Below, piece by piece: positions 1,253-14,351 of a stretch of 34,550 nt of DNA; the first letter of the stretch is position 1, and each line of letters begins with the position of its first letter. The notes beneath the pieces are model-generated. The model was not told the DNA's origin. It made no database searches and saw only the letters and a list, made by a program, of their open reading frames with translations. Source of the DNA: a virus; the IMG/VR virus record IMGVR_UViG_3300018421_000091, positions 1-34,550 of that record; one strand, 5' to 3'. The position numbers were made by a program, and so were the translations under genes.

Positions 1253-2299
1253 TTAAATATCAACTTTTCTTGTTGGACTAAAGTCAGCACCGCTTTCGAA
1301 GAAATCTAAAGATTCATTGAATCCAAAATCATCTCCTGGAATAATTAGAGCATCATCAGCAGTACTGAGAACATTAAGTTTTGCTCCATTTAAATGCTCA
1401 CTTGCAATTGTTTCATTATATCCCCTCATAACAGACATTGATGTGCTAGTTAATGAGGTTACCTTCATTATTTCATTATCAATAATGACTCTACTTCCTG
1501 TTACCAATCCAGAAGTATCATTTAGATTAATTACAGTTTCTGTAGTATCAACTGCTTCCGTCAATATTGCACCAGTATCATTATCATAATCTTTTCTTGC
1601 TTGTGGAGTTGCTGTATATCTTACCTGTCTTTGTGCCGTTAATCTATTAGTATCCGTATAGTAATCAACTTGAACCTTACGAATGATTCCATCTGTGCTA
1701 TCTGCAATAGGACCAAACAGATAAGTTTTGGCAGTAAACTGTAGAGTATAAATCAGTGCTCTACGTGTTGAAAAATCACCTTCATAATCATCTTGAAAAT
1801 TTATACTTTCTAAAACCACTGGAATATCTCTCTTTTCACCAATCGAATCAATTAGTTCAACTGTAATATTGAATGATGGTTGAAAATATGGAAGAATTTG
1901 TTCTAAAATTTGTAGTGCATCATCATTTAATTTTGTTAGAATATTTAATTCAAATCCCAAATTATATGGGACTGGCATATAAACTTTTTTAACTCTATTA
2001 TTTTCGTCTACTGCTTTAAAAGTTTGAGTTACAGAAACTTTTCTTGATGGGTCATATGAGATACTATTCATCTCAAATGACATTCTAGGCAAATTAATTT
2101 GAACAGCTCTATTTAATTCAGGTTGCTGTTCAAGTCTTGCTAAAAACTTTTGGGAAGGACCATATGCTAGAGGGACTTTAATTTCACTTTCAACTCCTCC
2201 ACTAGCGTTATCGTGCTTTACATAAATTTGATTAAACAGTGTTCCAAAAGAAACGACTGTTTTTCTAATTATTTCGTGATAAAAATAAGTTCCTAACAT
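1253..2299 (-). CDS. gp15: Tail sheath stabilizer / tail completion protein (gp15-like) with extra C-terminal module
   Basis: Residues 1-215 align by eye with T4 gp15: the N-terminal FYH...RR/K, the segment ILTKLNDDALQILEQILPYF (T4 has FTRYEDDMFQIVEQILPYF), then KRDIPVVL and GLIR-like motifs. In T4, gp15 forms the hexameric ring that caps tube and sheath and joins the tail to the gp13/gp14 neck. At 348 residues it is longer than T4 gp15 (about 272). The extra part is a module at about residues 246-312 with INLNDTSGL, IIDNEIMKV and VMRGYNETIAS, a pattern that recurs in two other proteins of this window. A short acidic/aromatic tail follows. Its ATG shares one base with the gp14 stop (TAATG), indicating translational coupling. 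Confidence 0.92.
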   Translation of the reverse strand: MLGTYFYHEIIRKTVVSFGTLFNQIYVKHDNASGGVESEIKVPLAYGPSQKFLARLEQQPELNRAVQINLPRMSFEMNSISYDPSRKVSVTQTFKAVDENNRVKKVYMPVPYNLGFELNILTKLNDDALQILEQILPYFQPSFNITVELIDSIGEKRDIPVVLESINFQDDYEGDFSTRRALIYTLQFTAKTYLFGPIADSTDGIIRKVQVDYYTDTNRLTAQRQVRYTATPQARKDYDNDTGAILTEAVDTTETVINLNDTSGLVTGSRVIIDNEIMKVTSLTSTSMSVMRGYNETIASEHLNGAKLNVLSTADDALIIPGDDFGFNESLDFFESGADFSPTRKVDI

Positions 2300-3933
2300 T
2301 AATAATTACCAAATGGATTGGATTCTGTAAAATCAAGTATGAGATCTGCCGCAGTTTCAATCTCGTCATTATCAGTATATTTATCATATGTATCATCATT
2401 GGTATGGAAATCAACTGCATATCTTGCTGAAGATGCCGTACCAACAATAAGTTCACCGTTAGTGAATGTTCCATCAACATAAGAGATTTTGAGAATACTC
2501 GTGTCTTTATCCCATTCTTTCACTCGTGCTGTTGTTCCTGATCTATCTCCAGTGACTATCTCATTAAACTGATATGTACCAATACCAGAAATAAGTGGTG
2601 GATCTGCAATTGTTATTGTTGGTGCAGTAACATAACCAATTCCAGGATTGATAATTCTAATTGCAGTGACAATATTGCCACTAGAAATTTCTGCTCTGGC
2701 AACTGCTGTTGCAAGTGATGGATCTTTAAATGCATCATCATTGGATATTGTTACAACTGGAGGGGTAGCATATCCACTACCAGGATTTGTAATCGTCAAT
2801 GCACTGATGGTTCCACCAACGCCCACGGTTGCCGTTGCTGTTGCTGTATTTCCGACACCAGAAGGACTTGCTATTGTAACTGTAGGTGCCGTAGAATACG
2901 CCGCTCCGGGGTTAGTTATGGTTAATTGCGTTACCGTTCCACCAAGACCAATTGTTGATGTTGCAGCGGCACCAGCAGAGGGAGAACTAATAGTTACAAC
3001 AGGAACAGATGAATATCCAGAACCACCATCATCAACAGTAATTGATACGAGTCCTTTTTGTGTAGTTTCAATAGAGCAAGTTGCCGCAGCACCTGTTCCT
3101 CCACCACCTGTGATGTATATTGAAGGAACTGTGGTATACCCAGCACCAGTATTCGTCAATAAAATTTCTTTTAGTGATGTAATACCACCTTTAGATGTCG
3201 TTATGGCAACTGCCGTGGCAGTTGTTCCAGAAACTGGTGCAGCATCAAAAGTCACAACTGGTGTGGATGTATATCCACTACCATCATTGTTTAAAAATAT
3301 TTCTCTAATATATCCAGTATTAATAAGAGATGATGCAGTTGCTGTTGCACCAATACCAATCAATTGTAAAGTTGTTATATAACCCTCATCCTGAATTTGT
3401 GTATCAATTTCATCAATCGTAGTATCAACAACTTCATCTTCATATTCGAAGAGTTCACATTTTAATTGATATACGTAATTTTTTCCTAGTTGATAAAATG
3501 GATCTTCGTGTTCAACAAATTTAACTTCAAATAATCTTTGACCTAATGGAAAATAAATTAAATCACCTTCTCTTGGACGAGTTGCCAATGCAATTTCAGA
3601 ATTATCACTAGCATCCAAAAATGGTGATATAAAATCTTCAAATCTTTCTTTTGATATTGTAACCGTTAGTTCGTCTCTTAAAGACATACCAAACTTTGTT
3701 AAAATATCACCAGCACCACTATATCCCTCAAATGTATTGATATATGCTTCAATTACATAGTTATCATCAAATTTTGATAACTCAACCTCATTCAAGATAG
3801 TATCCTGATTTAAAACTTTTCTTGGAATATATGTGACATCAACACCATGAAATCTCAGGTGCTCATTTATTATGTCCTGAACCAATCTCTGTTCAGATTG
3901 GGTGCCTTGAAGAAAGAACGGATTTAGTGCCAT
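2299..3933 (-). CDS. gp14: Neck protein gp14-like, enlarged by glycine-rich repeats
   Basis: The N-terminal 185 residues (MALNPFFLQG, then TQSEQRLVQDIINEHLRFHG and VTYIPRK) are typical of cyanophage gp14, the neck protein that with gp13 seals the filled head and docks the tail. At 544 residues it is about twice T4 gp14 (about 256). The added part, residues 195-450, contains six units of roughly 40 residues with the core GYxxxPxVTI (near residues 220, 264, 306, 345, 387 and 432) separated by Gly/Ala/Thr-rich stretches such as ATATATVGVGGTI. A different module follows at about 455-500 (EIVTGDRSGTTARV...FTNGELIVG). The last 25 residues (AADLILDFTESNPFG) look like the normal gp14 end. The repeats probably form surface beta-structures on the neck; that is inference. 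The gene overlaps gp13 and gp15 by one base at each end. Confidence 0.92.
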   Translation of the reverse strand: MALNPFFLQGTQSEQRLVQDIINEHLRFHGVDVTYIPRKVLNQDTILNEVELSKFDDNYVIEAYINTFEGYSGAGDILTKFGMSLRDELTVTISKERFEDFISPFLDASDNSEIALATRPREGDLIYFPLGQRLFEVKFVEHEDPFYQLGKNYVYQLKCELFEYEDEVVDTTIDEIDTQIQDEGYITTLQLIGIGATATASSLINTGYIREIFLNNDGSGYTSTPVVTFDAAPVSGTTATAVAITTSKGGITSLKEILLTNTGAGYTTVPSIYITGGGGTGAAATCSIETTQKGLVSITVDDGGSGYSSVPVVTISSPSAGAAATSTIGLGGTVTQLTITNPGAAYSTAPTVTIASPSGVGNTATATATVGVGGTISALTITNPGSGYATPPVVTISNDDAFKDPSLATAVARAEISSGNIVTAIRIINPGIGYVTAPTITIADPPLISGIGTYQFNEIVTGDRSGTTARVKEWDKDTSILKISYVDGTFTNGELIVGTASSARYAVDFHTNDDTYDKYTDNDEIETAADLILDFTESNPFGNY

Positions 3934-4772
3934 TATCCAATAAGATCGAGAGGTGGTAACTCATGCTCAAGCATCATGGTTTGCTTGAGTTGTTCTAATT
4001 CTCTTTCGGCATCATCATAAATCTCTCTACCATTTAATTCGATGCCACCAGGTAATTTAACTCCTCTAAACTTCAGTAAGTTTTGTCCCCATTGACGTTT
4101 AATTAGAGCAGTCAGATATTTTTTAACAAAACTATCATTATAAACTTGAGTAAATGATGCTGGATCGAGTGCTCTGTAACAATCAATAACTAAGAAATTG
4201 CCTGCGTTTTGTGCATTCCAATCGATGTCGAGATACATTCTATCTTGACGTTTATTAAACCTTATTTGTTTGTCTGTGGTTAATAAGTGATCAATATCTT
4301 CCAAGTAACTCTTTGTCATTGCATATTGCAATAATTCAACCGAGTTAAAATAATATAGGTCATTCAAAAATAACTGATATTTGATACTGAACATCCCACC
4401 AGAAATGCTGCTGGTATCAAACTTAAAAACTCTTTCAATTCCAATTACCGAATCTGGAACTTGAATATAATTTGATGTCTCATAAAAACTGAATGTTGTT
4501 GCTGAACCAACAATGGTTGCATTTGCAGTTGTAGTTACAATACCAACACCATTGGTTCCACCTGCTTTTCCTCTATCAATGTCTTCTTGTTGAAGTTCGT
4601 ACTTCAAGAACATTCTTTCAACACCATCAAAATGACGCTCATTAAAATATTGAATGGCGTCATCAACTAAATCATCAATTTGATCATCATCAACGTTGAT
4701 TTCTAAGACAGGGGCACCCAAACGCCTTAGGCAGTAATCGATTAATCCTTGACGCGTTGATGGTTTTGCCAT
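3933..4772 (-). CDS. gp13: Neck protein (gp13-like head completion protein)
   Basis: The 279-residue product begins MAKPSTRQGLIDYCLRRLGAP and has the acidic INVDDDQIDDLVDDAIQYF segment that characterises cyanophage gp13. T4 gp13 (about 309 residues) forms a complex with gp14 that closes the portal after DNA packaging and binds the tail. Residues about 75-110 contain a Thr/Gly-rich insertion (GTNGVGIVTTTANATIVG) before the conserved IQVPDSVIGIERVFKF block. The C-terminus is charged and helical (DDAERELEQLKQTMMLEHELPPLDLIG). It overlaps the upstream 81-aa gene and the downstream gp14 by one base each (TAATG), so the three are translated as a chain. Confidence 0.92.
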   Translation of the reverse strand: MAKPSTRQGLIDYCLRRLGAPVLEINVDDDQIDDLVDDAIQYFNERHFDGVERMFLKYELQQEDIDRGKAGGTNGVGIVTTTANATIVGSATTFSFYETSNYIQVPDSVIGIERVFKFDTSSISGGMFSIKYQLFLNDLYYFNSVELLQYAMTKSYLEDIDHLLTTDKQIRFNKRQDRMYLDIDWNAQNAGNFLVIDCYRALDPASFTQVYNDSFVKKYLTALIKRQWGQNLLKFRGVKLPGGIELNGREIYDDAERELEQLKQTMMLEHELPPLDLIG

Positions 4773-5019: not shown

Positions 5020-6642
5020 TTAGAATGTTCCCCCGTCAATAGTTGTAGTCCAAACTGGTCTGTCACTATATGTAGTAGAAACGATAGTTGGATTTACAGA
5101 TACACTTGTTCCTTCAGAAACAATATCATTTGTGGTATCAAATGTTCCCTGAACACCGATCAAAGTCACTGTATTTGAAGCACTGGTAGTGGTTTTCACC
5201 ATACCATATGCCGCACTGTTATTTTGTTGAGTAATTTGTGATCCAGCAGCCAAACTTGCATTTCCACTCAATGTTAAAACTACCTCGGTTACGGCAGTCA
5301 AAAGTTGAGTAGAAGTAAATGTTGCCGCAGATGGTGCGGTTGTTGACCTCTGAAGACCAGTGCTATCAAAATAAGTAACACCATGTGTTGAGAAATCACC
5401 AGACTGATAATAGATACCTTTAATATCTAAGAAACCTTTTGTTCCTGAAACAACACTATTTGAAATAGTTGCATCGGGAATATAGGTTAATCTTCTACTA
5501 TCATTAGCATGTGATTCAAAAACACCAGAAGTGGCAATGGAACTATCATCCATACCAAAGAATCCAGTCTTATTATTACTGGTTCCACTACTTGTATTGT
5601 ATTCGAAAGAAATACCACGGTCAGTATTGGTATCAAATGCGTGAGTTACTGTTAATTCTGTTGTGGTTGAAATTCCAGCAATCGTTGGATCGGTTAGTGT
5701 AATAACTTTATTAACCGAATCATATGAGGTAACAGTGTTTGCGGCACCTATATTCAGACCAGCATCACCACTTATAACATCACCAGTATTGATACCAACA
5801 ACGGAGTCTAATCTAATAGTGCTTACACCAGAAACGACGGTTTCCATTACCGTCCTAACACTTGTTACATCACCAAGATTTAAAATTGCTTCGTTAGCAC
5901 TAACGGTCGATGAATTAACAGTAGTTGTTGTTCCATCAACTTGAAGATCACCCTTAACAATAACAGTTCCTTCATTACTGAAACCATCGGGATATGGGTC
6001 AATGTAAAGAACATTACCCCCACCAGGTCTTGTTGAAATAACGTTGGATGAAATACCAACGTTATCAATTACAAACTGACTGCCAGCAGGTAGATTATAT
6101 GTTTGACTTGTATTCCAAACCCAAGGAGCACCTGTTACTTGAACGGAATCAGATCCATTTTCATCATATTCGATTTTAGCATCTTTGCTATCACCGAAAG
6201 TTAGAAACTGATCGTCTGGAATTACAACTTCACCAGCACCATTAGTTCTTAATTCAATATCTCCATCAGTATCATTGGATGAAATTGTATTTCCATCTAT
6301 TGTTATATTATCTACTGACCATTGATCTACTCTAGGTAGACGTGAAATGGCACCCAAACCACCAGGGTTTCCTCCATTCTCCGTCAAAAGAACTGGAACA
6401 AAACCATTTGCTGGTGTTGTTGGATTATCTTGCCCAGCAACTAAACCTGGTGCAATACTTAGAAGATCTGTGTAATATCTACCACCAATTAACTGGGGAT
6501 TTTGCGAGTTGTCACCCGCATAAAGCCTTCCACCTCTATTACCATGTGTTCCAACGCCAATTGTTAATCCAAGTTCACCATAATTTAGAGTTGCTGGTGC
6601 GGTAGTACCAGTAGATCTTTTAACTCTAATGATACTTGCCAT
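5020..6642 (-). CDS. Fibre-like virion structural protein (540 aa)
   Basis: The N-terminus (MASIIRVKRSTGTTAPATL, then YGELGLTIG and GGRLYAGD ... LIGGRYYTDLL) is the domain found at the head of many marine phage fibre or tail-tip proteins; such domains usually anchor the fibre to the virion. The middle has beta-strand-rich segments (DGNTISSNDTDGDIELRTNGAG; QVDGTTTTVNSSTVSANEAI) and a module VSTIRLDSVVGINTGDVISG. The C-terminus reads TTTIDGGTF, closely matching the DINGGSF end of the 75-aa protein just upstream. In T4 this region holds genes 9-12 and wac; I infer a fibre, collar or whisker-like role but cannot say which. It begins by one-base overlap (TAATG) with the 75-aa gene. Confidence 0.8.
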   Translation of the reverse strand: MASIIRVKRSTGTTAPATLNYGELGLTIGVGTHGNRGGRLYAGDNSQNPQLIGGRYYTDLLSIAPGLVAGQDNPTTPANGFVPVLLTENGGNPGGLGAISRLPRVDQWSVDNITIDGNTISSNDTDGDIELRTNGAGEVVIPDDQFLTFGDSKDAKIEYDENGSDSVQVTGAPWVWNTSQTYNLPAGSQFVIDNVGISSNVISTRPGGGNVLYIDPYPDGFSNEGTVIVKGDLQVDGTTTTVNSSTVSANEAILNLGDVTSVRTVMETVVSGVSTIRLDSVVGINTGDVISGDAGLNIGAANTVTSYDSVNKVITLTDPTIAGISTTTELTVTHAFDTNTDRGISFEYNTSSGTSNNKTGFFGMDDSSIATSGVFESHANDSRRLTYIPDATISNSVVSGTKGFLDIKGIYYQSGDFSTHGVTYFDSTGLQRSTTAPSAATFTSTQLLTAVTEVVLTLSGNASLAAGSQITQQNNSAAYGMVKTTTSASNTVTLIGVQGTFDTTNDIVSEGTSVSVNPTIVSTTYSDRPVWTTTIDGGTF

Positions 6643-6869
6643 TAGAATGAACCTCCATTAATATCTAAATTCTGTGTAGCTCCTGGTGTTAATTCTAAAG
6701 TCGCATCCCACTTATTGGTTGTGGCATTGTAAACAAGAACCATGCCGTTTGATAGTGTTCCAGCATTGACGTCACTTAAACCAGAAAGAGTTCCGGCAGT
6801 ATCCCCAACAATTGAAGAAACAACCTTGATTGCGTTTTGTTGACCTACTCTTACTTTTATATCTGGCAT
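6642..6869 (-). CDS. Small fibre-tip-like structural protein (75 aa)
   Basis: This small protein starts MPDIKVRVGQQNAIKVVSS and continues with LSGLSDVNAGTLSNGMVLVYN, then KWDATLELTPG and the end NLDINGGSF. The 'LSDV.A..L.nG.vLvYn..t.kW' pattern recurs in marine myovirus structural and fibre proteins. It is the first gene after a late promoter and its stop overlaps the start of the 540-aa fibre-like protein, which has the same Gly-Gly-aromatic C-terminal tag. I infer a short trimeric tip, adaptor or collar component; no enzymatic residues are apparent. Confidence 0.75.
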   Translation of the reverse strand: MPDIKVRVGQQNAIKVVSSIVGDTAGTLSGLSDVNAGTLSNGMVLVYNATTNKWDATLELTPGATQNLDINGGSF

Positions 6870-7094: not shown

Positions 7095-7281
7095 TGATTA
7101 ACTCCATGAGTAGGTTTTTTATCACTTGAACGTCTTTTTTTAATTCACTAATTTCATCTTTTTGTTTTTGACGTTCTTTTTTCATTCTAATATACTGATT
7201 ATATTCGTAAGTATCACAATTGACTATTGCCCCTGTTTTTTCGTCACGGAAAAGATTACTATGTCCTTCAATTGGTATCAT
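7081..7281 (-). CDS. Small coiled-coil protein (66 aa), unknown function
   Basis: The N-terminal half (IPIEGHSNLFRDEKTGAIVN, then YEYNQYIRMKKERQ) is a compact motif seen in small proteins of marine T4-like phages ('gh.nL.RD..t.AIin.d...Y..Y...r'). The C-terminal half (QKDEISELKKDVQVIKNLLM) is a predicted coiled coil. Its ATG overlaps the DUF4815 gene stop by four bases (ATGA), and its end overlaps the 60-aa gene. A scaffolding or assembly role is possible, but nothing in the sequence proves it. Confidence 0.78.
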   Translation of the reverse strand: MIPIEGHSNLFRDEKTGAIVNCDTYEYNQYIRMKKERQKQKDEISELKKDVQVIKNLLMELINDKS

Positions 7282-10200
7282 GCTAGTGCAATTGCCCTCA
7301 TATCACGGAATTTTGTAGTGTATGCTTCATTTGTTCCACTCATTACAATTTTGATTGCAAATCCAGAAAATTCTGGTAACTCATCTGCAGTAAATTGATA
7401 CTCGATGAATTCATTATCTTCACTTGCTTTTACATAAACATCTGGTAGACCATTATTTAAGGAAGTATCAATCACGGTATCTCCAATACCATCACCATCA
7501 ATATCCTTTAGATTACTGTAACCAGGGAATAGTTCATAGGATTGTTCAACCTCACTAGAATCTGGTCTAACCAGTTTATAAAGAACTCTAAAATCACTTG
7601 AAGAATTTCTATAAGATGTAAGAACAACTTTCAATGAAGTTGCTGGTTTTTGTAAATTAACTGTGTTTGAAATGTAAACAGAAGAATGTGGATCATTTGA
7701 AATTTGATTCGATCTAGAATCGGTTACATAGTTTTCAATTGGATTGTTAAGTCTATTTCTAGCAAATACAAATGTTGCTGCCTCAGTTAAATCAATAACT
7801 GGTGAAAGATTTTTGTTCGATGACTCCATCCTTACACCTAGTGTCAATGACTTGCTCTTTGGTAAAGATGTTAGTCTATTGACTTCATTAACTCTTGAGC
7901 AAACAATTCTTGGTGATGATAATGTATTAACTTTGTTAAGTGCAACAGATTCATATCCTTGGTCTAAGAAAGATTCTTCACTACCACCAGAACTTGTTCC
8001 AGAAACTGTTCTCAATGTTGCAGAAACACTAGTATTTTCAGGATTTAGTACATTAAAGTATGGGATTACTTCATTGTACTGAATATTCTGCGTTGCTCTT
8101 CCATTCGAACCACCGAAAGATCCTTCATTATTGAAACTTAATAAGTCCGCACCAGAATTTTTACCCGCAGGTCTAACAAATTCAAGGTGATATGTGTCAA
8201 TTTCTCTAGATGCAACTAAAGTTTGGTTAGTTGGCATTGTATGAGAATTATTAATTCTGGTTAGTGAAACACCATTCAATTCATATTTTCTAACAATGTC
8301 ACCAACCGCATGATTACGAACCGTCGATTCATTTTCACCGCGAGCAACAATGGTAACCGAACCAACATTAACTGCATTATATGAAATAATCTCATCATTT
8401 ATTAGTACATATCCTGGGTTTGAACCAGAAACTGCAGTTCCTTCAAAGGTCGAAAAGTCCGAAGTACTTCCAACAGATATTGTTGTATTTGTTGATGTGA
8501 CTGATGCAGTTAATGTAGTTGATTGGGTGTCTGGTAAAATTCCACTAACATTCACAATATTGCTATTGGAATGCATACCGTGATTGTAATGACTTACTTC
8601 AAATACATTTCCATTATAAAGATCATTAGGAACAGAAGATGTTCCCCTGACAGTGGTTCCAGACATTGAAACCAAAGTGTTTCCACTATAATACGATAGT
8701 GTTTGGTTTTGTCCAAATGCTTCACCACTAACATTTGTCAAATATAGAGTATCAATATTTGGAACCGATGTAACAGAAATCAATGCATTTCTTCCAGCAC
8801 CACCAACGGAACTGGTTGTAATACCAAGCAAGTCACCAACCTTATATCCATTACCGGTTGATGCAAGAGAAACGTTAGTTACTGTATTTCCAGAAACTGT
8901 GATATCTGCAGTTGCACCAGAACCATTACCATTAATTGTGTAAAGTGGAACTGCCGTGAACGAACCATTTGAATAACCAACACCAACGGTACTGATACCA
9001 ACTGTATTAATATTTCCACCAGTTGCTTCAATATAACCAGTATTTGAACCTTCTGCAACTTTTACACCCGTTGTCAATATACTATTAAGTGCATAACTAG
9101 TTGACATACCTACCGTTAATTTTCTTGGTAGTGTCTTTATTGGATTATTAGTTAGTTTTGGTAGATTTACATCAGCTGATGCATATGTACTTCCAATCGA
9201 AATAGATGGATTGTTGAAATATGCCACACCAGAAGTAGAAATAAACTCTGCCTTATAGAGTTTAAACTTCAGATCCTCAGAAATAGTAGGTGACCAAACA
9301 GAACCATTTTGTGGTTTAAACAAATTACCACCAGTATACTGATTTGAATAAATTACCTGATCCGCATTTGGATAGGACTGTGTATCTACAGTTGCTTTAT
9401 TCGTTTCACCAACCCAAACTTCGTAGTCATCTGAAGATGGGCAGATTAAAGTTAATGCATATTGCTTGTTTGGTTGCAAATATAGTGGTGAAGGTAATGT
9501 TACTTGAGTTGCAACTGATCCATCAGTAGAAGTTTTAACATCCGAAGGTAGTAAACCAACTCTTGCAAAATTTTGAGTTAATTTATCTTTTGGTGTTCCT
9601 CCAATATCAGTTTCTCTAATCTCAACAAATACCTTTTCACTAGTATCTTTTGATTTAAAGAATAAATCAATTTTTGTCAAGAATCCACCAACATTATCAC
9701 TTCTAAATGTTTGACTCAATGGATCTCTTCTTAGTGCATTTAAAGGAAGAGCAGTTGGGGTTCTTCTGATTGAAACATTTTCAGTATAAACTTCTGGATT
9801 AATAACTCCCAGACTATAGAATGATGTTTGAGAGAAATTAATTGATGTTCCCGAAGAATTTGAAGAACTAGTTGTCAATTTAAATGACTTAGTTCCTTTT
9901 TTGAAGGTTGTAGAAGGCGCTGGTGAAGCAAGAGGATTTCTAATGAATAAGCAACCAATCAAATCTCCAACCGTATCTGATGTAAGTGATTGTTTTGAAA
10001 CTGTTGCCTGAGCAGAACTAGTTTCTCCAACCAAAGTCATATCACTAACAACATATCCATAAAATCTTCCCTCAGAGTCATCTGCCAAGGAGAAAGTATC
10101 AATGTTTATTAATGCTGCAGAAGAGGAATATGTTGTAGCAATATCTAGTGAAGGTGAATATGGATTCTTATCATAAGTTTTTGTGGGACTCAGATAAGGA

Positions 10201-13200
10201 CCATACTTATGATTTGCATTTGCTAGTCTAAATGCCGCAACTTTCACACCATCTTGATATCCATAAACAGTCTCTCCTGCCTGGAATGCACCACTACTCA
10301 TCGTTACTTGTAAAAGTTTTGGAATTACATCAATATTTGAACTACCACCAAAGAATGAGTAGTGATTAGTTGATGGTTTTAATCCACTTGCTTCAAATTG
10401 AATGTTTCTTGATCTTAATTTATTGTTGATTTCAGAACTAGTGACTAGATTTGAGATGTAGGTATTTTCCCAATTGCTTTGAGACCTTACAATTCCACCA
10501 GATTGAACATTTAATGTTCTTACCCATGTGTCAGAAGATGGTGTTAACTTTATGTTACCATTATAATTTTCGACTCCGAATGGATTGATTTTTTGACTCT
10601 TAGTTGCAAATGTCTGTTTAATATCACCCCACTCAACGGAGGAATAGTTTAGAGTTATCAAATCTCCAGTCTTTTTGATATTTGGATCTAAAAGAGTAAA
10701 GTCTGAAGAGAAATCAAGAGTATTAATATCTTGATTTGATGATGGAGAAATTTGTGACTTTAATGAGTAGAATGCTAAATCAGATCTTAACTCAGTACTG
10801 GAAATATCAACCGTAGAATTTGCATCTGGATTTTCAGTATCAATAAATCCAGTTCCTTTAAAATTATCTACAAAAAATCCTGATTTGAATCTGCTCAGTC
10901 CATCGGTATCTTGAACCTGTAAAGTTTTGGTATCAAGTTCGAGGAGAGTTAGTGATGTGAGTTCTTCTACGGTTTCAAGTCTATCTTCGATATTACGAAG
11001 ATCTTGCATCGTATATCTCTTGTTGTTGACAAGTCTAACATTGACATCATCTGGATTATACAAGTATGCTGGAAGTTCTAGTGTTGCCAGGTCCATAGAA
11101 TTATCCACTGTTCCTGGTTCAACAGGATTTTGTGAGGCAACACCTTTTACAACAGAAATATTACCGTTTTTATTCAAAACGATTTTATCAATTCTAGGAA
11201 GATAATATGAATATCCTACAATGGAACTTTCATTTGGTGAAACAACCAGTGTTGGATTTGAACCAGCAGAACTAAAATCTCTACTTCCAAATGAAAATGG
11301 AGAGGATGTAGTTGAATTAAATGGTGCGACTCTAGGTCTAAAGTCTAAAACATCTGTTGCTCTTGTATTATTCTTGAGGAGAGGAATATCGGATGTGTAT
11401 CTTTCTTCTCCATAACTATTAACACTGAATACATCACCACTATCTGCTGATGGAACTGTGTAGTAATCGTATACAACTAATAGTCTTCTAGATGGAATAT
11501 ATGAATCAGATCTTCTAACAATTCTCGAATAGTCATAATATTGTTCTCTTTGACCTTTGTCCAACTTATAATCTTGTGTTTTATCCGTGTAATTTCCTTT
11601 TCCAACAGATAAAATTGAAGATCTAATATTAGATTCTTGGAAAACTACTGATTCATTTGGTGAAAATCTATTTGAGTTGAGATAAACAAATTCAACTTTT
11701 GTTGATGATACTCTATTAACTACCTGAGCAACAGCACCATTACCCTCCCCGATAATTTTTTCACCAACAATAGAAGCAGTGTTTAGATTCAGACCAGATG
11801 CAAATGTTAGACTATCTAGAATAACACTTCCATTATCTAGAGATTCATATACTGCAATAACCTTGTTTACATCTGGAACATTAAGTGATATTTCCTTATC
11901 TTCTACACGCAAACCATAATAATCATTTTGCGTCATTCCATAAAGGTCTGCCGTAGATTGTGAAGCACTATTAGAAATTTCTAATTGCTGACTTCTAATA
12001 TAATTTTTTAATTTATTCTGTATCGAGTTCTTTTTAACCGTTGCATTAACAAAAACGTTACTCTGATTTGGAATCAAACCACTGAATGTTACATCGAGGG
12101 AATTTCCAGAAACAACTACTTGGTCCGAAGTCAAATTTGCAGAAGTTCCATCTTCATAGAAAATTGAATATCTATCAACTGCATATGGTTCAAAGAAAGA
12201 ACTTGTGATGCCAACGTCTGTTCTATCAATCGACAATACACCATTATTATCTGTTGATTTTCCAGATGCTTGTCTTTCTACAAGAAGATTTGAACCAGAG
12301 AAAGAAACATTAGAAATATTTTTAGAATTCAAACTAGCATATAAGTGTGCCTTATCACTATTCTTGATTGATGATGCACCGATAGAGAATGTGGTGTTAA
12401 TTGTGGTTCCACTAGGAAGTGATCCATCACATACACCAGAAACATTTTCTACTGCCTCAAGTGTCATCTTAAGACCATCAGTGGAAACACCGATAACTCT
12501 ATTAAAGGTTTCTACGGTTTTACCAGAAATTTGATATTTTATAATAGTATCTGTTTTAATACCAGCAAAATTTCTACCAGCACATGTTGCAATACCGGCA
12601 GCACTAATATCTAACGTATCTGTAATAGAGAAATTTTTAGGAGTCTTTGATTCGAGAACAGTATCTGCAACAAATGCCGTACTTAAACCTGTTCCACCAC
12701 CAGTTCCTTGGAAAATTGACTTGATGTCCTGTGCTCCATACACATTTATCTTAGTAATAGATCTTGTAATAGACCCACCATTAATTTCAATTTCTTCACC
12801 AACAACAAAAGAACCAGAAGTTTGGTCTAGTTTGAATACTTCTCCTGCATGGGATACGACATAACCAGAAGCACCACTATTCTTTCCTTTAAAATGTGAA
12901 CCAACTGGAACTTCTGCTAGTGTTGCACTAGAACTCAAAGTTAGTTCGGTAAAGGTCTGAACATCCCAAAGATATAAGTCCCACTGATTAGCAGACTTAT
13001 TAACACTATCTGCATCAGCGAGTGAGAATGAGTATACTCTTGCTCTTCCTATCTGTGTTCCAGTTGCAGATTCGGTATCTTCTTTTCTTCTATTATAAAG
13101 ATCTACCGTAAAGTTATTATTAATTCCAACAACTGGAGTTCCAGAAACATTATTAACTTTTAACTTATTTCCCATCTCAAACGGGATAGATGCACTAGAA

Positions 13201-14351
13201 ACGTTTCTAGATGATCTTGGTTTTTCTATGTCTAAAATAGAAGTTGCTGTTTTTTCAACATCAAAACCCTGAACATATGCTTTTCCAGGTGAAACTTTAA
13301 TTGCCAGAAGATCATCCGATGGGGTATTTCCCTGCTCAGTAATCTGATTGGAGAAAAATACTCCATCAGACCCGATTCTATCATTTAATGAGTTTTCTAC
13401 TTCAACATCAAATGGATCTACGGCATAATTTCCAGATTCTTCAAAAGTTCTCTTTGCAATATAATCTTTAATTTGTGAGTAGGTATTTGTATCCTGTATT
13501 TTTTTAACTACACCGTCAGTTACCCTTAAAATTTCAACAAAATCTTTATCATCAGTATCGGTTAATCTTTTCTTAGAAAGAACTGCAGAAATTTTTAGTC
13601 TATCCGCACCAGGTGCTGCATAATTAGAAAATCCTCTTGCATTATCATAAAGACTATTATCGTCTTGTGCATCTATAATAGACTCTGTGATGAATAAACC
13701 TACTCTATATGAAGGAGTATTTGAATATTGGTCAAGTAATAATGTGTCATCATTGACATCTATAAAGTGTCCTCTTATATAATAAACACCCTGTGAAATT
13801 GAAACTGCAGATGCAGTAAATGTTGCTTCTGAATTAATTAGTGTTGCAAATGTATCACCTGTTGGAATAGTCGTATTTCCATACGTAATATTATCTAATG
13901 CGATTAGAGTTTCACCGTCTCTAAATTGTGAAATATTAAAACTAGCATCTGCTGTGATGTATTTTACATAAATTGTATAGTCACCAGTTTCAGACTCTGT
14001 ATTTTTAAGAACTTTTTGGACTATAGCGGTTAGTTGAGAAGTTTGTCCCTTAATCTTCTTACCAACCAACTGCTCTAGATACAATCCAACACTTAATCCC
14101 ACATGTGTTGGATTAATTTTAACAGCAAAATATGATGGATTATATGTAATATTTCCTGGAATTACAATGGAACCATCTTTAAAAATATGATTTGCAAAAG
14201 ATTTAACTTGATTTTGGAGAATTGACTGTAAAGTTGTCAGTTCTCTTGATTGAACTGGAAATCCGGGTTTAAAAAGAACCCTATAAAAATTACTATTGGG
14301 ATCAAAATCGTCATAATATGGCGAAACATTTAAATTTGTTTTTTGTGACAT
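7278..14351 (-). CDS. Very large DUF4815-type virion structural protein (2357 aa)
   Basis: The N-terminus (NLNVSPYYDDFDPNSNFYRV, then LFKPGFPVQSRELTTLQSIL) is the signature of the DUF4815 family of phage structural proteins. It sits directly after gp8, where T4 has baseplate genes 9-12, so it is probably a peripheral baseplate or tail-fibre network component. The first ~1000 residues form the conserved core; residues about 1130-1160 (VNNKRYTMQDLRNIEDRLETVEELTSLTLLE) look like a coiled coil. A GY-repeat pair lies near 1777-1860 (STVGVGYSNGSF; ASTGNGYKVGDL). A module near 1944-2020 has ISVGSTSDF, LINDEIISY and VARGENEST, also found in gp15 and the giant protein. The C-terminal part (SLKVVLTSYRNSSSDFRVLY ... 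FRDMRAIALA) looks like a receptor-side or capping domain common to these phages. Exact role unknown. Confidence 0.88.
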   Translation of the reverse strand: MSQKTNLNVSPYYDDFDPNSNFYRVLFKPGFPVQSRELTTLQSILQNQVKSFANHIFKDGSIVIPGNITYNPSYFAVKINPTHVGLSVGLYLEQLVGKKIKGQTSQLTAIVQKVLKNTESETGDYTIYVKYITADASFNISQFRDGETLIALDNITYGNTTIPTGDTFATLINSEATFTASAVSISQGVYYIRGHFIDVNDDTLLLDQYSNTPSYRVGLFITESIIDAQDDNSLYDNARGFSNYAAPGADRLKISAVLSKKRLTDTDDKDFVEILRVTDGVVKKIQDTNTYSQIKDYIAKRTFEESGNYAVDPFDVEVENSLNDRIGSDGVFFSNQITEQGNTPSDDLLAIKVSPGKAYVQGFDVEKTATSILDIEKPRSSRNVSSASIPFEMGNKLKVNNVSGTPVVGINNNFTVDLYNRRKEDTESATGTQIGRARVYSFSLADADSVNKSANQWDLYLWDVQTFTELTLSSSATLAEVPVGSHFKGKNSGASGYVVSHAGEVFKLDQTSGSFVVGEEIEINGGSITRSITKINVYGAQDIKSIFQGTGGGTGLSTAFVADTVLESKTPKNFSITDTLDISAAGIATCAGRNFAGIKTDTIIKYQISGKTVETFNRVIGVSTDGLKMTLEAVENVSGVCDGSLPSGTTINTTFSIGASSIKNSDKAHLYASLNSKNISNVSFSGSNLLVERQASGKSTDNNGVLSIDRTDVGITSSFFEPYAVDRYSIFYEDGTSANLTSDQVVVSGNSLDVTFSGLIPNQSNVFVNATVKKNSIQNKLKNYIRSQQLEISNSASQSTADLYGMTQNDYYGLRVEDKEISLNVPDVNKVIAVYESLDNGSVILDSLTFASGLNLNTASIVGEKIIGEGNGAVAQVVNRVSSTKVEFVYLNSNRFSPNESVVFQESNIRSSILSVGKGNYTDKTQDYKLDKGQREQYYDYSRIVRRSDSYIPSRRLLVVYDYYTVPSADSGDVFSVNSYGEERYTSDIPLLKNNTRATDVLDFRPRVAPFNSTTSSPFSFGSRDFSSAGSNPTLVVSPNESSIVGYSYYLPRIDKIVLNKNGNISVVKGVASQNPVEPGTVDNSMDLATLELPAYLYNPDDVNVRLVNNKRYTMQDLRNIEDRLETVEELTSLTLLELDTKTLQVQDTDGLSRFKSGFFVDNFKGTGFIDTENPDANSTVDISSTELRSDLAFYSLKSQISPSSNQDINTLDFSSDFTLLDPNIKKTGDLITLNYSSVEWGDIKQTFATKSQKINPFGVENYNGNIKLTPSSDTWVRTLNVQSGGIVRSQSNWENTYISNLVTSSEINNKLRSRNIQFEASGLKPSTNHYSFFGGSSNIDVIPKLLQVTMSSGAFQAGETVYGYQDGVKVAAFRLANANHKYGPYLSPTKTYDKNPYSPSLDIATTYSSSAALINIDTFSLADDSEGRFYGYVVSDMTLVGETSSAQATVSKQSLTSDTVGDLIGCLFIRNPLASPAPSTTFKKGTKSFKLTTSSSNSSGTSINFSQTSFYSLGVINPEVYTENVSIRRTPTALPLNALRRDPLSQTFRSDNVGGFLTKIDLFFKSKDTSEKVFVEIRETDIGGTPKDKLTQNFARVGLLPSDVKTSTDGSVATQVTLPSPLYLQPNKQYALTLICPSSDDYEVWVGETNKATVDTQSYPNADQVIYSNQYTGGNLFKPQNGSVWSPTISEDLKFKLYKAEFISTSGVAYFNNPSISIGSTYASADVNLPKLTNNPIKTLPRKLTVGMSTSYALNSILTTGVKVAEGSNTGYIEATGGNINTVGISTVGVGYSNGSFTAVPLYTINGNGSGATADITVSGNTVTNVSLASTGNGYKVGDLLGITTSSVGGAGRNALISVTSVPNIDTLYLTNVSGEAFGQNQTLSYYSGNTLVSMSGTTVRGTSSVPNDLYNGNVFEVSHYNHGMHSNSNIVNVSGILPDTQSTTLTASVTSTNTTISVGSTSDFSTFEGTAVSGSNPGYVLINDEIISYNAVNVGSVTIVARGENESTVRNHAVGDIVRKYELNGVSLTRINNSHTMPTNQTLVASREIDTYHLEFVRPAGKNSGADLLSFNNEGSFGGSNGRATQNIQYNEVIPYFNVLNPENTSVSATLRTVSGTSSGGSEESFLDQGYESVALNKVNTLSSPRIVCSRVNEVNRLTSLPKSKSLTLGVRMESSNKNLSPVIDLTEAATFVFARNRLNNPIENYVTDSRSNQISNDPHSSVYISNTVNLQKPATSLKVVLTSYRNSSSDFRVLYKLVRPDSSEVEQSYELFPGYSNLKDIDGDGIGDTVIDTSLNNGLPDVYVKASEDNEFIEYQFTADELPEFSGFAIKIVMSGTNEAYTTKFRDMRAIALA

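Follow-up and report, generated by a model that had tools for sequence, protein, structure and literature searches.

A conserved C-terminal tag on coupled fibre-like proteins of a T4-like marine phage as a candidate docking plug for the next fibre subunit

The tail fibre of bacteriophage T4 is a multi-protein chain, gp34-35-36-37, and T4 additionally encodes gp12 and wac between gene 8 and gene 13. In the BppU-BppL devices of Gram-positive siphophages and in the L-shaped fibre of T5 (LtfC), separately encoded proteins are stacked on the baseplate. To our knowledge, the recognition between separately encoded fibre subunits has been solved for only a few phages, and we know of no case in the BppU-BppL and LtfC devices where a generic C-terminal pentapeptide goes with a single type of N-terminal domain. 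For the N-terminal domain considered here (the KRS-type domain), the closest curated family and solved structure is the N-terminal domain of Mtd from Bordetella phage BPP-1 (PF18454; PDB 1yu0-1yu4). In the locus that we analysed, two neighbouring proteins, denoted A and B, share a short C-terminal sequence (the tag) and occupy the gene 8-gene 13 interval, like gp12 and wac in T4; no gp12 or wac (fibritin) family was found among the Pfam and PHROG matches of A or B.

The window, i.e. the whole 34.5 kb stretch, is the complete record of a T4-like marine phage. Its genes are ordered on the minus strand as a 4321-aa ORF, gp8, a 2357-aa virion protein with DUF4815 (7278..14351), two small genes, A, B, an 81-aa gene, a gp13-like head-tail adaptor (3933..4772; PHROG 211), a gp14-like head-closure protein annotated by family match (2299-3933), gp15 and the small terminase. 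Since the gp13-like gene is downstream of B, the A-B pair is located between baseplate and neck genes. The gp14-like protein of the window has a long insertion of GSGYxxxPxVTI-type repeats, and repeats of this type are also matched by numerous families of baseplate and other virion proteins. Protein A (75 aa; 6642..6869, minus strand) is short and adaptor-like, with an IKVRVGQ N-terminus, an LSDVNxxxLxxGMVLVYN motif and the C-terminus ...NLDINGGSF, whose tag INGGSF (6645..6662, minus strand) was read from the ORF directly before the stop TAA. Protein B (540 aa; 5020..6642, minus strand) is fibre-like. It has the KRS-type domain at its N-terminus (MASIIRVKRSTGTTAPATLNYGELGL...; 6445..6642, minus strand, end approximate; E 1.7e-17 to the P-SSM2 homologue) and the C-terminus ...WTTTIDGGTF, with the tag IDGGTF (5023..5040, minus strand) likewise read before TAA. 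The two genes overlap as TAATG, base 6642 being common to both. An earlier sequence-only reading of this DNA had pointed to a shared ending on two TAATG-coupled fibre-like neighbours, and both ORFs and both endings were confirmed.

Protein A matched PHROG 13853 (E 1.6e-26, function unknown), with no Pfam family above cut-off and no PHROG with named function, and the PHROG matches of B were phrog_15769 (E 8.5e-104, function unknown) and phrog_697 (structural protein) only. Searches with phmmer of A, B and a 112-aa protein encoded before A in relatives against PDB sequences gave nothing relevant. Among annotated relatives, P-SSM2 and P-SSM5 are the nearest (A 65%, B 48% identity), and the unannotated single-cell record AG-345-F15 is slightly closer to the window. 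Both A and B are annotated as "hypothetical protein" in P-SSM2. In virions of S-SM1, 41 proteins are reported to have been detected (PMC3037559).

In the loci fetched first, an [ND]GGx[FY] ending was present in 84 of 85 unique relatives of A, the remaining one stopping at LDING. A DGGxF ending was present in 113 of 115 unique relatives of B, the others being one IDCGTY and one apparently frame-shifted protein. The pattern [DN]GGx[FY]-stop matched 14 times in 12 whole named phage records (2.10 Mb), and 13 of these matches were ends of A, B or fused A-B genes; the fourteenth lies in P-HM1 (147428-147445, minus strand), antisense inside PHM1_170. The reversed pattern, used as control, matched 4 times in the same records. 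Sixteen further records gave 18 matches (reversed-pattern control, 5 matches), of which 11 were at the ends of A, B or A-like genes, 4 had TGG as last codon instead of a stop, and 3 closed frames only 19, 37 and 5 codons long; we do not read these 7 as ends of genes. The shared ending of A and B is not due to chance. Widely diverged named phages retain the tag or a near form in both proteins, the A/B endings being VNGGSF/IDGGTF in P-HM1, LDGGAF/IDCGTY in S-CAM9, LNGGTF/IDGGTYS in Melnitz, INAGAF/IDGGSF in Mosig and IESGQY/IDGGTY in Limnohabitans phage DC31. We also looked for related phages in which the endings vary freely in one protein only, which the sequence-only reading had named as the observation that would speak against it, and saw none. 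The tag of A is looser than that of B (SGGSF, ESGHY and NAGAF also occur in A), and a few B proteins extend one or two residues past the tag (e.g. IDGGTYS). When 12 diverse A proteins and fusions were aligned (mean column identity 21%), two columns were invariant, one of them being the third-from-last glycine. Among 4469 unique called proteins, from loci partly fetched by the tag, the tag stood at the end 468 times and inside the chain 29 times.

In viral contigs, IDGGTY-stop was found in at least 120 stretches and the permuted control IDGTGY-stop in 9. Each of the 81 IDGGTY matches among the 80 loci listed is the end of an open frame 66 codons long or longer, and nearly all of these frames are fibre-like by eye. 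In prokaryotic genomes, IDGGTF-TAA was found in 99 stretches versus about 90 expected (our own arithmetic, equal bases). About half of the 81 prokaryotic matches in the 80 loci listed resemble prophage fibre ends by eye, and the remaining ones include very short frames and unrelated genes. Beyond the A-B pair and marine phages, the tag occurs in prophage-like proteins of Clostridia, Paenibacillus and Malikia contigs. Furthermore, 66-84-aa proteins of podovirus-like contigs that carry MSNYTK (L276, L289, L301, L308 and similar) end in ..GTIDGGTY.

In order to describe the neighbours of the tag, we used the pattern M..I.IKRS...GELA for the KRS domain and a profile built from the N-terminal domain of B and related proteins (12 seeds, three rounds). 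Among the matches listed, a KRS domain begins the directly following gene for 59 of 83 tagged viral genes (IDGGTY set; 23 MSNYTK-type genes and 7 genes with no next gene set aside) and for 39 of 49 tagged prokaryotic genes (IDGGTF set; 3 genes with no next gene set aside). The viral value becomes 59 of 106 with the MSNYTK genes included. The background value in the same loci is 38 of 1103 untagged non-KRS genes. Of the 24 viral and 10 prokaryotic tagged genes that have no KRS domain directly next, 9 of the viral ones have it one gene later. When loci were instead fetched by a KRS protein of DC31, ignoring tags, 26 of the 32 pairs left after dereplication had a tagged gene upstream (15 strict and 11 near tags), and one of the six misses ends in ILGGSF; these pairs come from one query, with 50 KRS genes in the 80 loci listed before duplicates were dropped. 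Taking all loci together, including many that the tag itself had retrieved, the gene upstream carries the tag for 330 of 370 IKRS-type genes. A three-gene chain recurs, consisting of a small tagged protein, a tagged KRS fibre and an untagged KRS fibre. The search for marine phage proteins with GG[ST]F endings that the sequence-only reading had suggested led to fibre-like genes with a KRS domain usually next, in a range of phages that is not only marine.

The sequence-only reading is supported in part. Of the roles that it offered, a recognition tag for assembly agrees best with the data, in a narrower form: the tag predicts a following fibre gene whose product starts with a KRS-type domain. 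In the phage of the window, the proposed joint consists of the tag on A and the KRS-type domain at the N-terminus of the next gene, B. We consider it likely, with some reserve, that the tag is a docking plug and the KRS-type N-terminal domain of the next subunit its socket, linking A, B and a distal fibre. A, bound to the virion, would offer INGGSF to the KRS domain of B. The receptor of the B tag, IDGGTF, would be the KRS domain of protein C, a distal fibre encoded outside the 34.5 kb record, so that fibres would be built head-to-tail from separately encoded subunits. C, predicted to have a KRS domain and no tag, would end the chain. For this phage, we infer the physical contact, the trimeric state, the order on the virion and the identity of C. 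Prophage proteins in L401, L482 and L438 contain internal DGGSF/DCGDF-like units before their ends, which could be further docking sites.

Another explanation, which appears unlikely, is that the tag and the KRS domain belong to one co-inherited mobile fibre module and make no contact, the tag for example ending a beta-structured trimer. A, B and often C are indeed adjacent, and the module moves as a block, being located before gp13 in P-SSM2, S-CAM9 and others and after the small terminase gene in S-B05. The fibre bodies also have common repeats: with low-complexity filtering off, 142 of the 163 donor proteins fell into one cluster, and this clustering was not used for counts. The donors are not all independent. 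With filtering and 50% coverage, they formed 33 clusters, 25 of which have a KRS domain next in the majority of members. Against a co-inherited module, the donors that have no KRS domain of their own form 20 clusters, and 13 of these still have a majority with KRS next.

Tags and KRS domains were also counted per genome. Among 28 genomes, several of which are closely related, the number of tags equals the number of KRS domains in 26 by a hand count that includes after-the-fact choices. With the strict pattern, the counts are equal in 20 of 28, and in 27 of 28 the two features are either both present or both absent. Two tags and two KRS domains were counted in P-SSM2, S-CAM9, P-HM1, MED4-213, Melnitz, S-8S55, S-8S53, Mosig, DC31 and DSL-LC02, one of each in S-T4, S-SKS1, DSL-LC03, S-SRM01, ACG-2014f, Sf-CH8 and S-CAM7, and none of either in S-SM2, Bellamy, S-SSM7, HTVC008M, C48C1, S-CAM1, BUCT-ZZ01, Faust and BPP-1. 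The two discordant genomes are S-SCSM1 (no tag, one KRS domain) and S-B05 (three tags, two KRS domains). Gene position decided the counting of six degenerate tags, four in B (S-CAM9, S-8S55, S-8S53 and Melnitz) and two in A (Mosig and DC31). The KRS counts leave out the Mtd-type matches of S-SSM7, S-CAM1, HTVC008M (by eye) and BPP-1, a partial internal match in C48C1 and the domain inside the fusion of DSL-LC03, and the BPP-1 count was made without the KRS profile search. Sf-CH8, S-CAM7, DSL-LC02 and S-B05 were chosen blind to tags, from matches to the 112-aa protein. The counts are equal also where C is at least 80 kb from A and B (P-SSM2, S-T4, ACG-2014f), which speaks against co-inheritance. 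The second KRS protein of P-SSM2 lies at a distance of about 114 kb, and the candidate partner of the B tag there is a 617-aa protein at 214874.

Fusions and distal fibre proteins bear on the same question. Fusions in which, by eye, an A-type start runs into a B-type end occur in S-SKS1 (159 aa), S-SRM01 (213 aa), ACG-2014f (85 aa) and S-CAM7 (85 aa). All four have lost both the A tag and the KRS domain, and they retain the final tag. In the fusion of DSL-LC03, a degenerate A end, IDGQV (NEIDGQVNPTIKIKRTT), stands directly before a retained internal KRS domain. Loss of the A tag, mostly together with the KRS domain, is as expected if a covalent link makes the A-B joint unnecessary, and speaks against a module whose parts are only inherited together. 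In HTVC008M, an A-like start is fused to a 1020-aa protein that has no tag. The C proteins of P-SSM2, S-T4 and ACG-2014f, the three that were read to the end, begin with a KRS domain and have no tag. This again does not favour co-inheritance, and it also makes trimer capping, one of the roles offered by the sequence-only reading, less attractive. These three distal fibres (L647, L648, L649) have a common conserved end of their own, TPxIxAL.

Rather less probable than co-inheritance is that the tag serves as the recognition site of a shared fibre-assembly chaperone. Chaperones that act at fibre C-termini exist, namely T4 gp38 and Tfa of Mu and lambda, and the tag is C-terminal. The tag of B is also probably exposed, as judged from an AlphaFold model of B (mean pLDDT 66, both ends low) in which residues 527-540 are below 50, as for a free peptide. 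The exposure in structure models that the sequence-only reading had asked about is thus consistent with the model of B, and docking did not appear: in the monomer models of B and of a 116-aa KRG+tag protein (mean pLDDT 58), the tag is disordered and not docked, and the KRS region of B is itself of low confidence, so that the models speak neither for nor against docking. A Foldseek search with the model of B returned one match below E 0.001, to a tail tube (TM-score 0.13-0.25), and among weaker matches several to trimeric phage spikes and endosialidases. The model of the 116-aa KRG protein gave nothing useful in Foldseek. A chaperone leaves unexplained the near-equal numbers of tags and KRS domains, the missing tag on the three distal fibres read and the fact that A-B fusions mostly lose the KRS domain. 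Finally, that the ends were duplicated between neighbours by recombination, as the sequence-only reading had also proposed, or that a nucleic-acid signal (coupling or recombination site) encodes the tag by chance, is very improbable: the TAATG coupling of the neighbouring genes A and B is in its favour, but the third codon positions of the tag vary freely (371 dereplicated tags), so that selection acts on the protein, the residues just ahead of the tag vary between groups while the tag is constant (by eye), and the gap to the next gene is 0 to 28 bp in the listed A-B pairs, i.e. there is no fixed overlap.

The weightiest exceptions to the plug-and-socket reading are above all BPP-1, the RR[DG]..NW subclass of domains and the MSNYTK proteins. 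BPP-1 was used as an independent prediction, of a tag on the gene before mtd, and the prediction failed: this gene (bbp9) ends in GLADLGGIA, with no tag. Mtd-type and IKRS-type domains were treated as distinct only after this failure, a refinement made post hoc. Mtd-type domains are preceded by a tag in only 7 of 20 cases. With the prophage acceptor of L397 as query, relatives of the RR[DG]..NW subclass were obtained, and among the matches listed none of the 21 upstream genes carries a tag ending in [ST][FY]; six end in GGGA, GGRA or GGKA. Of 14 genes ending in DGGx[AI], 7 stand before an RR..NW domain according to the classifier and 3 before a KRS-like start, L650 being an eighth RR..NW case by eye; by our own estimate, the RR..NW cases represent no more than four or five lineages. 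Among 524 DGGx[FY]-like genes, not one stands before an RR..NW domain, and 13 RR..NW calls (one a false match) have no tagged upstream gene. Endings of the DGG[GRK]A type or similar ones before RR[DG]..NW..NPxL domains were seen in L650, L651, L653, L655, L659, L666, L668 and L327, and this combination may be a second tag dialect. In the MSNYTK proteins, the tag is present and the next gene is not KRS; of 18 such contigs, mostly short fragments, 6 have exactly one KRS domain, including both contigs longer than 25 kb.

A broader version of the docking hypothesis, which seems to us evenly balanced between true and false, is that a plug-socket code, [ILV][DN]GG[ST][FY] with KRS, spans tailed phages and prophages of distant hosts, with tags setting the acceptor and the chain length and possibly with a second dialect. 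Should a six-residue tag and a single domain type join fibre subunits in many phages, the order of these subunits would be readable from sequence alone, and uncharacterised fibre genes at distant sites of one genome could be paired. In marine phages such as P-SSM2, peptides and purified domains would then allow the path of the fibre to be tested. Judging from its spread in sequence data, the tag-KRS joint could be how many phages link their fibres. Among open-licence PMC papers, the tag motif strings gave no phage paper by title, and we claim no novelty. By title and abstract start, in the same collection, nothing relevant was found on C-terminal motifs, docking, adaptors or Mtd-like domains, and nothing on the tag in cyanophage or BPP-1 structure papers.

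Among curated families, that of Mtd is the closest to the KRS-type domain. The Pfam model PF18454 is matched by 6 of 26 KRS-type relatives, the KRS profile matches Mtd residues 1-41 with E 0.0045, and the KRS domain of the window itself matched no Pfam family, PF18454 included, at E up to 0.01. The 116-aa KRG model aligned to 1yu0 over 40 columns with E 3.8 at rank 50, behind many unrelated SH2 chains. Unlike the tag-KRS pairs, Mtd-type domains mostly have no tagged protein before them. A second likeness concerns the small gene that precedes A in many relatives, whose product is similar to LtfC (18 bits against a curated cut-off of 27; E 0.0045) and, in DC31, to BppU_N (17.8 bits, below the cut-off of 23.1). 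This LtfC-like gene precedes A in most named relatives read and is absent there in the window and in P-SSM2. The 112-aa LtfC/BppU_N-like protein (L149:14666-15004; homologues in L150, L151, L153-L159 and L161) often has its own conserved end (..VTR, ..EITK), perhaps another joint. In the donor-strand exchange of the chaperone-usher pathway and in the docking domains of polyketide synthases, a terminal peptide fits a domain of the next subunit and sets the order. We know of no homology between either system and the tag-KRS pair; the likeness is one of principle, and by a putative mechanism of this kind the tag-KRS joint would resemble both.
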